A stretch of DNA of 64,000 nt from Ulva prolifera (Eukaryota > Chlorophyta > Ulvophyceae > Ulvales > Ulvaceae). How positions within the stretch are numbered: position 1 is the first letter of the stretch; each line of letters starts with the position of its first letter. Where the stretch lies: NCBI GenBank assembly GCA_023078555.1, contig CM041199.1, forward strand, positions 1,054,001-1,118,000, read 5' to 3'. Both the position numbers and the translations under genes were made by a program. Positions 3,679 through 16,842 of this stretch are shown in pieces. Under the pieces are notes generated by a model, which saw only the letters and a list, made by a program, of their open reading frames with translations, had not been told where the DNA came from and did not search any database.

Positions 3679-6179
3679 GCGCCACCAAGGCAGAGGCCCC
3701 GGCGGCGACGATCGAGGTGTTGGCATCGTATGCGGACGACGTACAGTGGAGGGTGCGGTGGCATGGGTCGCCGAGAGCGCGTCGGTGCGCTGTCGCTGCT
3801 GCAGCTTCCTATGTTCCGTCGCGCTGTGCCTGTCTGCGTGCCGCGCTCACGCCGTCTGGTGTGCAGGGCGATGGCGCATTTCGTCCGGGGACGGCGGGGC
3901 CACCATCCCAAGACGCGGAGGCTGTGGCGGAAGGAGGAGTTCGCCGACGTGGCCCGCGGCTGCCGCGGCGACGTGCAGCGCAACCGCTGGCGCGATCGGC
4001 GTGTTGACATGGTCAGCCTTCCAATGGCTTCCGGTACAGCGGCGCCGTCGCGCGAGTCGCTCACGGATCGCGTCCGCGAGGCGCGTGCCTGGCTGTTGAA
4101 TCCGGAGCGGAAGCGCGCGCTGGCACGGGGCACGCCCACCCCGACGCGTGTGCGGGTCTTGCGACCGGGCCGGGCGGCTGACGTCGTCGTGCGGCAGTCC
4201 GAGTACGGCCTCGCTTGGTGCGAGGGGCTCGCGCCTGGGCCCGGAGCCGGTTCTGTGTCTGCCGGGACTGCTGTCTCCACGGCCAGAGCCGAGCCGGCGC
4301 GGCCGCTGCGGGCGGGCCGAATCACCGCGGGCATGCACCTCGCCTCGTGCGTCGTGCGCTGTGTCCAAGTGTTGATGCAGTCGACTCTGGCCGCGCCGGC
4401 GGTGCACAGCGCCGCTCGGGAGGATGACGCCGGGGTGGGGCGTGTGTTGTTCCTGGCGGCGTACCTCGCTGCAGTCGGCCTGGCTGCGGCGGAGGCGCAC
4501 CGCGGCGCTCCGCATGCGCCCTCCAATGTGGAGCCAACCCTGGTGGAGGTCCCGGCGAGGGTGGCGGGCGCCGGGGGTACAGTGAAGGAATCCGCTCGGG
4601 AGGATGCTACTGAGCGTGCCGCAGCTGCGATCGGTGGACGGGGGGCCGTAGGCGCCGAGGCGGACGAGCAAGTCGGGGGCGGGGTCAGGCTCAGGGGAGG
4701 CGGGGATGTCATTATGATGTCGGACTCGGACGATGCGGACGAGCCCGCTGGGGCGCTTGCGTACGGCGGACCGCCTGTGGGGGAGGCGGCCGCGGCAGCA
4801 TCCATCGAGGGGGCGATGGCAGTGCCTCCACCAAGCTCGCAGGCCGTGCCTGCGTCATCGCCAGCCGTGCCGGCGGTGCCTGGACGGGCCGCATCGCAGT
4901 TCCGGATCCGGAGGTCCCACCAGCGGTCACTCATGATCAGCTTGAGCAGGGGGCAGGCCCCGAAGCGGCGCCGTGAGGCGGCGCCGAGCGTGGCGGGACA
5001 GGGTGTGGCGACCGCATCTGCAGCTGCGGCCGCGGCATGTGCAGGTGACGAGGCTTTTGCAGCCGAGACGCCCGCACTCGCAGCCGAGGCAGAGGCGCGC
5101 GTCGTGGCTGCTGCATCCCCACGAGGTGCGGCCGCTCCGGCTGCAGTCGCGGGCGCTGTGTCCGCTGGGCGGGCCCCGGACGTGACGTGGATCGGCAGGG
5201 CCGGGCGCGTCACAGGTGGGCGGGGGCGGGGTGCAGAGCGCGGTCATGACGTGCCGCGCCGCCCGCCAGGGCGCTGCGCTGTGACGCTGGCGAGGGACGT
5301 CTTCGGCGCCTCTGACGAGGAGGCGCCCGTGGCGGCAGCCGCATCCGCGCCACGGCAGCTCCGCGTGGACGAGGCGGTTGCTACGGCTCATCTCCCGGCT
5401 GAGGATACCGCATGCGCCCGTGTCCAAGGGGAAAGCAGCGTCGCCGCGTCCCGGCGTGCATCGATGCCAGCGCTCGGTCGACGCAAGCGCGGTAGGAATG
5501 CCCGCCCTGTCATTAGACTGGGGCCCCTCCCGCCTGTGGAGGGCGACGTTGGCTCACACAGCGGTGCGCGTGACGGCGGGCGTGATCCCGCGACTCCACC
5601 GTTGTTGCAGCTGAACAGCGCTGCAATGGACGGAGGCGGTGGCCCATTCACCAGTGTCGCACAACCTCAGGCCCCCATCACTGCGGTATCCGGGCCTGGC
5701 GCTGATGTGGTTGACGTCGAGCTGCCCGGCGCAGCCTCCCCAGCTCCGACTTCCGCTGTAGTCCCCGCCGCGGTGGCGCAGCTCGCAGCAGGCTCCGTTG
5801 CGGATGACCGTGTTGTCTTCGACCTTGTCTCCGAAGAGGCCGCTGGCGATGTGTTCGACCAGGCAGAGGTTTCCGACGATGGTGCGGCCGTCGTGGCTCC
5901 GGCGGCGCGTCCGGCGCAGGTGTTGGAGGATTCGGACGACGAGGGTGCCGCCGCAGAGCCTCTGGGCGATGAGTCTGCGCGGAGGGGTGGCGGCGGCGGC
6001 GGGGCTGGCTGTCGACGTGCGGGTGCGGGGGATGCGCGCATGGATGCGCTCGCCGCCGTCAGCGAGGGCTACACGGTCGATCTTCCGCAAGGGGCAGACG
6101 ACGACGATGACCCTGAAGAGCCAGACGAGGCGATACAAGCCTTAGCAGGCCAACTCGAAAAACCGGAGTCGTACAAGCG
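3679..6179 (+). CDS. Copy 1 exons 1-2: disordered N-terminus with SIM-like motif
   Basis: Exon 3679-3784 encodes a short piece with VRWHG; its intron is 3785-3866. Exon 3867-6179 begins AMAHFVRGRRGHH, then a basic patch, then a probably folded part of about 170 residues (LLNPERKR, VVRQSEYGLAWCEGLAP, RITAGMHLASCVVRCVQV). The remainder is Ala/Gly/Pro-rich and acidic. The motif RGGGDVIMMSDSDD fits a SUMO-interacting motif with an acidic, phosphorylatable tail. Other conserved blocks are SQFRIRRS..SLMISLS, DVTWIGRAG, a KRGRNARPVIRLGPLPP-type basic block and an LEDSDDE acid patch. Copies 2 to 4 repeat the folded part, and copies 2 and 3 the other blocks. The exon ends in a Lys-Arg codon split by a GTGCGA donor. 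Function unknown; probably nuclear. Confidence 0.6.

Positions 6180-16842: not shown

Follow-up and report, generated by a model that had tools for sequence, protein, structure and literature searches.

A giant multicopy gene family with tyrosine-recombinase-like, zinc-module and helicase-like parts in the green alga Ulva prolifera

The genome of Ulva prolifera harbours a predicted giant gene which, judging from sequence comparison among its copies, is real, constrained, multicopy and unusual in its make-up. One copy, designated copy A, lies in the window, i.e., the whole stretch of 64,000 nucleotides analysed here (C4:1054001-1118000), and was compared with the genome sequence of 88.9 Mb in 44 contigs.

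Exon organisation in the window

Copy A is composed of 15 GT-AG exons at 3679-16842 on the plus strand which, when joined, encode 3,122 residues with no stop; AG is found 5' of every exon and GT 3' of exons 1-14. This bears out the earlier note on this DNA, in which 15 stop-free, phase-keeping exons and a product of about 3,100 residues had been claimed. The junctions were chosen partly by phase, as had been done by the earlier reader, and since GT and AG are very common (so frequent in the candidate splice lists of copy A that a phase-matching choice is easily found), phase agreement by itself is weak evidence. Exons are numbered 1-15, with the comparison labels E1-E14 referring to exons 2-15; the start of exon 2 was set at 3850 in the comparisons and at 3867 in the final model. 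The exons of copy A are the following:

3679-3784, plus strand: exon 1, conserved at window positions 37198-37302 and in the C6 and C2 copies
3867-6179, plus strand: exon 2 (E1), N-terminal conserved part followed by an Ala/Gly/Asp-rich low-complexity stretch
6713-7181, plus strand: exon 3 (E2), helical conserved region preceding the core
7636-7932, plus strand: exon 4 (E3), box-I-like motif G[AVC]RNP..A..W
8025-8314, plus strand: exon 5 (E4), motif DK[AS]P with a Lys-like position
8429-8717, plus strand: exon 6 (E5), box-II-like Arg, GQW and Tyr
9126-9483, plus strand: exon 7 (E6), from paralogue comparison
9655-10085, plus strand: exon 8 (E7), from paralogue comparison
10343-10556, plus strand: exon 9 (E8), matched in the C1b and C2 copies, not found in the C6 copy
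10795-11306, plus strand: exon 10 (E9), zinc module, SBP-like
11980-13759, plus strand: exon 11 (E10), more Cys/His modules
13836-14117, plus strand: exon 12 (E11), from paralogue comparison
14470-15416, plus strand: exon 13 (E12), conserved domain with no family match
15553-16362, plus strand: exon 14 (E13), RGG/Gly-rich linker with conserved end, matched in the C1b copy only
16572-16842, plus strand: exon 15 (E14), helicase-like part with Walker A, damaged in copy A

Very long (GT)n tracts are present in or beside introns, at 8737-9032 in copy A and at 41.6-42.1 kb in copy B. Fragments and other transposons are nested among the copies, as seen from the remaining features of the window:

37198-41331, plus strand: copy B1, exons 1-3
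42406-47356, plus strand: copy B2, exons 2-8
49835-55387, plus strand: copy C, partial exons 2, 3 and 5; the frame match of exon 3 contains one TGA
63012-63809, plus strand: copy D, part of exon 2; the window ends there
62349-62867, minus strand: helicase C-terminal part of a minus-strand copy, nothing in Pfam
19357-26718, minus strand (frames): Ty3-like element downstream of copy A, labelled from motifs
30185-35747, minus strand (frames): copia-like element downstream of copy A, with direct repeats at 29802-30101 and 36041-36340

Tandem arrays of 12 bp, of the TACAGCGTGTGC type and its reverse complement, occupy 1978-3153, 29081-29788 and 36410-37078; located upstream of both copy A and copy B, they have opposite orientations, the second array being split by the copia-like element. 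The open reading frame at 52526-53374, which from its motifs resembles a PrimPol-type primase and for which Pfam gave nothing, has 22 further weak matches dispersed in the genome; several of these have open frames of 302 residues. It was rejected as a part of the gene, its weak relatives being dispersed over the chromosomes. Another open frame, of 456 residues and with no significant Pfam match, follows copy B2 at 47945-49312.

Conservation and genomic distribution of the copies

The exon order is kept in four other copies on three chromosomes, at 23-72% protein identity in tblastn searches with the exons. Among the 14 labelled exons (exons 2-15), 13 were matched both in the C1b copy (L055-L057, reversed; exon 2 undetected) and in the C2 copy (exon 14 undetected), 12 were matched in the C6 copy (exons 9 and 14 undetected), and the order is kept in part in the C1a copy (L031-L032), with exons 2, 14 and 15 undetected. 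Exon 1 recurs with 60-66% identity over 32-35 residues in copy B of the window and in the C6 and C2 copies; in the C1 stretches it went undetected. At the testable exon ends of the four paralogous copies, i.e., those approached by the BLAST alignments to within five or six residues and then extrapolated, AG stands exactly at the homologous exon start in 34 of 39 cases and GT exactly at the homologous exon end in 21 of 31, against a background of 5-7% for either. The joined models of these copies are free of stops, and no phase clash was flagged by the script; two ends, both of exon 4, are doubtful, this exon ending without GT in C1b and containing a proline run in C1a. From 20 exon pairs, two mis-framed ones and one with saturated dS were removed; over the 17 usable pairs, dN/dS is 0.04-0.48, with values of at most 0.33 in 15 of them and no significance test attached.

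Because exon order, splice sites and dN/dS agree across copies, it is well supported that coding constraint acts on one predicted multi-exon gene, and the earlier claim of one giant gene gains support from the exon order and splice sites common to the four other copies. An artefact of chance open frames joined by eye, which the common GT and AG letters would favour by making phase matching easy, is rejected on the exon order, dN/dS and homologous AG/GT positions that the paralogues have in common, and its probability is negligible. Protein searches with the full-length sequence (no match at E<=0.001 among 7,986 candidates scored) and with joined exons 3-7 (no match among 7,995) yielded no transcript evidence among the candidates scored.

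The exon 3 query has at least 56 matches in the genome, stops being present in some copies, and these matches lie in clusters:

C1: 3.54-3.78 Mb
C2: 1.85-2.09 Mb
C4: 1.06-1.11 and 6.85-6.88 Mb
C5: 3.32-3.44 Mb
C6: 1.80-1.85 and 7.61-7.78 Mb
Small contigs: further exon 3 matches

The helicase query adds C3 and C7 to the chromosomes with copies, and no cluster was detected on C8-C12 with the exon 3 and helicase queries. There are nine-odd clusters, inside which copies are near-identical, and on C6 the family is found at two places on one chromosome (1.8 and 7.6 Mb). A role as centromere marker is not claimed, considering that some chromosomes carry two clusters and that none was detected on C8-C12.

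By sequence, copies appear to group mostly by chromosome. In a tree of 30 fetched rows (18 different) out of 56 exon 3 matches, chromosome labels need 7 changes, compared with 16.2 upon shuffling, and none of 200 shuffles was as low; C6 forms a single group, C2 is split, and rows from C1 and C4 are partly intermingled. The C5 exon 3 matches 3361077, 3384485 and 3407897, which belong to one subfamily, constitute a tandem array with 23.41 kb spacing. Queries with C2 and C6 flanking DNA returned close copies only in their own clusters or on unplaced contigs and none on other chromosomes; elsewhere, there are more distant matches to the coding start (66-81%) and a separate dispersed repeat. The latter (L059:8863-9412; about 550 bp, many chromosomes having copies of roughly 90% identity) is unrelated to the gene family. 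The restriction of near-identical DNA copies to their own clusters fits local duplication as well. In four C6 copies, the helicase part is followed at a distance of 571-593 bp by a 166-bp tandem repeat, which is also present in a C1b intron; a trace of it is seen in the window next to the minus-strand helicase part. No element ends or target duplications were found in the copies, the extents of which are mapped in part.

Candidate domains of the predicted protein

The tyrosine-recombinase-like core (exons 3-7) that the earlier note had described is a motif-based lead to an as yet unproven chemistry. Residues Arg, Lys, Arg, Trp and Tyr are invariant and in order in five joined copies, with spacings of 40, 127, 29 and 11, which resemble those of tyrosine recombinases. 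Exon 6 could be read as far as the candidate Tyr in 13 copies, of which 12 have it and one, the C5 copy L069, has Cys instead; the C5 copy L020 has the second Arg motif in the H-x-x-R form, and two divergent copies, L020/L067 and L022/L068, lack a recovered Tyr region or exon. Beyond the motifs, the comparisons gave no support: Pfam returned one unrelated family in one of five members (E 0.14), PDB profiles one unrelated match (E 1.7), and PF00589 has no match in the alga's own genome. In hhalign, the core reached 0.37% against a XerD profile and was not above unrelated E. coli proteins against single recombinase sequences, whereas the control XerD profile recovers Cre at 70.5% and lambda Int at 65.5%. 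Against a combined XerD, Cre and Int profile, 6.6% and a score of 27.9 were obtained, but in the wrong register (20 column-shuffled decoys scored 10.8-22.8). The AlphaFold model of the core stretch, which included intron-encoded inserts, is poor (pLDDT 46.7, pTM 0.31), and a Foldseek search with it gave 10 matches at E<=10, none of them a recombinase and none at E<=0.001.

The zinc modules appear weakly SBP-box-like. They contain C-x-C-x-C-x2-H followed by a second Cys-rich site, as does the SBP-box zinc domain; unlike there, they are repeated several times within a giant protein, and the copy A module stays below the Pfam cut-off of 27 bits (20.2 bits). Zinc modules had been claimed before, and that part stands; the count of five is approximate, a regular expression for Cys/His modules giving overlapping matches, six in A, four in C1b, two in C6 and four in C2. 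Of 26 genome matches to the SBP model, 9 are above the cut-off, among them two in C1-cluster copies (27.9 and 27.4 bits); scored singly, L032 has 25.2 bits (E 2e-5), L034 16.4 and C1b 13.6, with none for joined A. True SBP-box genes of the same genome score 62.5 bits (C9) and 60 bits (C4), and the model has matches in 3 of 14 control genomes, none of them over the cut-off. The AlphaFold model of exon 10 has a pLDDT of 46.1. SBP-box genes are described as plant-specific (PMC6407117).

Long open frames of 491-676 residues that are dispersed over the genome form a second set, with an SBP-like match at residues 1-52 to 1-59, and are perhaps another repeat family with SBP-like fingers. Matches to the SBP model are at:

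C6:5825967 and C6:5857574
C9:1052214
C2:10855213
C8:4054274
C1:2761008 and C1:2803376
C10:1197152

For the helicase-like end, the earlier claim of a Walker A start is supported; the gene, however, runs further than had been described, since a helicase-like C-terminal part is present downstream in other copies, and copy A is broken in the helicase exon. In the C1b, C6 and C2 copies, both helicase parts come after exon 13, in order. The match of copy A to P0004, a public-read protein, ends with RWQYGT, after which copy A continues with LLYRL; the Walker B part is therefore taken to be missing and the helicase broken in this copy. In an alignment of 17 helicase exon sequences, P-loop, D/E-E-x-Q, D-P-x-Q and G-Q-x-R are found nearly throughout, and in the same order as in the Pif1/RecD helicases of SF1; the part is divergent from these, and its C-terminal portion has no Pfam match. 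At E up to 1, 12 of 17 exon members match AAA_19 (best E 3.9e-5) and 8 of 17 match AAA_30 (best E 3.3e-4); the best score of member 1, 22.3 bits, is below the Pfam cut-off of 27 bits, and the best 60 of 152 matches to PDB profiles are to general P-loop proteins. When the exon was used as a protein query, 7,999 candidates were scored and 15 of them reached E<=0.01, mostly single-exon frames located on short contigs.

The helicase C-terminal query (window 62349-62867) has 35 genome matches. In ten pairs, paired by hand and not comprising all matches, the helicase part follows exon 3 on the same strand at 10.8-15.5 kb, start to start:

C1, 3557749 / 3650516 / 3699738: 12.2 / 12.5 / 15.5 kb
C2, 1854718 / 1914720: 12.1 / 11.3 kb
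C4, 6852553: 11.4 kb
C5, 3384485 / 3407897: 11.1 / 11.1 kb
C6, 7623863 / 7759060: 11.2 / 10.8 kb

One further C6 pair (7645948, 7653103) is only 7.2 kb apart.

Possible origin and relation to known systems

As an explanation, we tentatively propose, at somewhat less than even probability, that the gene family encodes a giant nuclear protein which would make up a selfish element's self-maintaining core. Its tandem zinc modules would bind the element's own DNA, the helicase would open this DNA or move along it, and the tyrosine-recombinase-like core would cut and rejoin it, with new copies being added beside or inside older ones so that clusters are built; recombinase chemistry, DNA binding, mobility and nuclear action are what we infer here. 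Common exon order and splice sites, clustering, constraint, nested fragments, the Arg-Lys-Arg-Trp-Tyr residues, the SBP matches, the 166-bp repeat and the helicase spacing count for this proposal. The lack of a recombinase match, the Cys in L069, the two divergent copies with no recovered Tyr, the confinement of close DNA copies to their own clusters or unplaced contigs, the 7.2-kb C6 pair and the failure to find element ends, target duplications or transcripts count against it. The broader reading, a new green-algal class of giant single-protein elements in which recombinase-like core, SBP zinc array and SF1-like helicase would form one machine building and maintaining its own clusters, with SBP ancestry shared with the plant domain, is rather doubtful. 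The earlier note had suggested the core of an undescribed class of mobile element; in the scans made, the architecture indeed matched none of the described families; the copies are, however, confined to clusters. A mobile-element nature is likely but unproven.

A non-mobile host gene family, tandemly duplicated at few loci and with a role in chromosome maintenance or recombination, is doubtful, yet would account for the chromosome bias in the grouping of copies, the C5 tandem array with its regular spacing, the confinement of DNA-level copies to their own clusters and the purifying selection. It fits poorly with the many fragments, the stops in some copies and nested partial copies, with the high copy number within transposon-rich clusters, and with the two distant clusters each on C4 and C6. 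A mobile family whose core (exons 3-7) is a different nuclease or a domain for binding, rather than a tyrosine recombinase, is unlikely: the negative profile and fold tests, obtained although the XerD profile recovered Cre and lambda Int, and the Cys that the C5 copy L069 has instead of Tyr point that way, but the order and spacing of the invariant residues speak for a recombinase, and the failed model was a poor one with intron-encoded inserts. Remnants of an integrated virus are very improbable; a large, clustered, helicase-like protein whose P-loop part weakly matches viral helicase models would suit them, the many introns would not, and no relative was confirmed in viral_contigs in one scan with the helicase exon.

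The selfish element proposed here shares features with several known systems. With Crypton, DIRS and Starship elements it has the candidate Arg-Lys-Arg-Trp-Tyr residues in common, although its core is without significant match to the tyrosine recombinase family. Unlike in Crypton and DIRS elements, zinc modules and a helicase-like part are contained in the same giant, intron-rich protein. Starships are described as giant and as classified by their tyrosine recombinase in PMC12134995, and for the Helitron RepHel protein more than 1,500 amino acids are given in PMC6431247. Like Helitrons, the family has one large protein with a helicase; no HUH Rep motif was seen by eye, and the core looks different. 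KDZ transposons carry Cys-rich modules, which is a likeness to the family. They are also very large and hold nested insertions of other elements, as stated in PMC12477816, and the family resembles them in both respects; no KDZ or CxC Pfam family was found in ten pieces of copy A (exons 1, 9, 12 and 14 were unscanned). A literature search, with subscription papers mostly outside its scope, found no such architecture.

Should the core prove to be a recombinase, the family would represent a eukaryotic element with cutting, DNA recognition and unwinding in one protein, and a plant-specific transcription-factor domain would be tied to a selfish gene family. Even if the family is immobile, a constrained giant gene family in chromosome-biased clusters deserves explanation.
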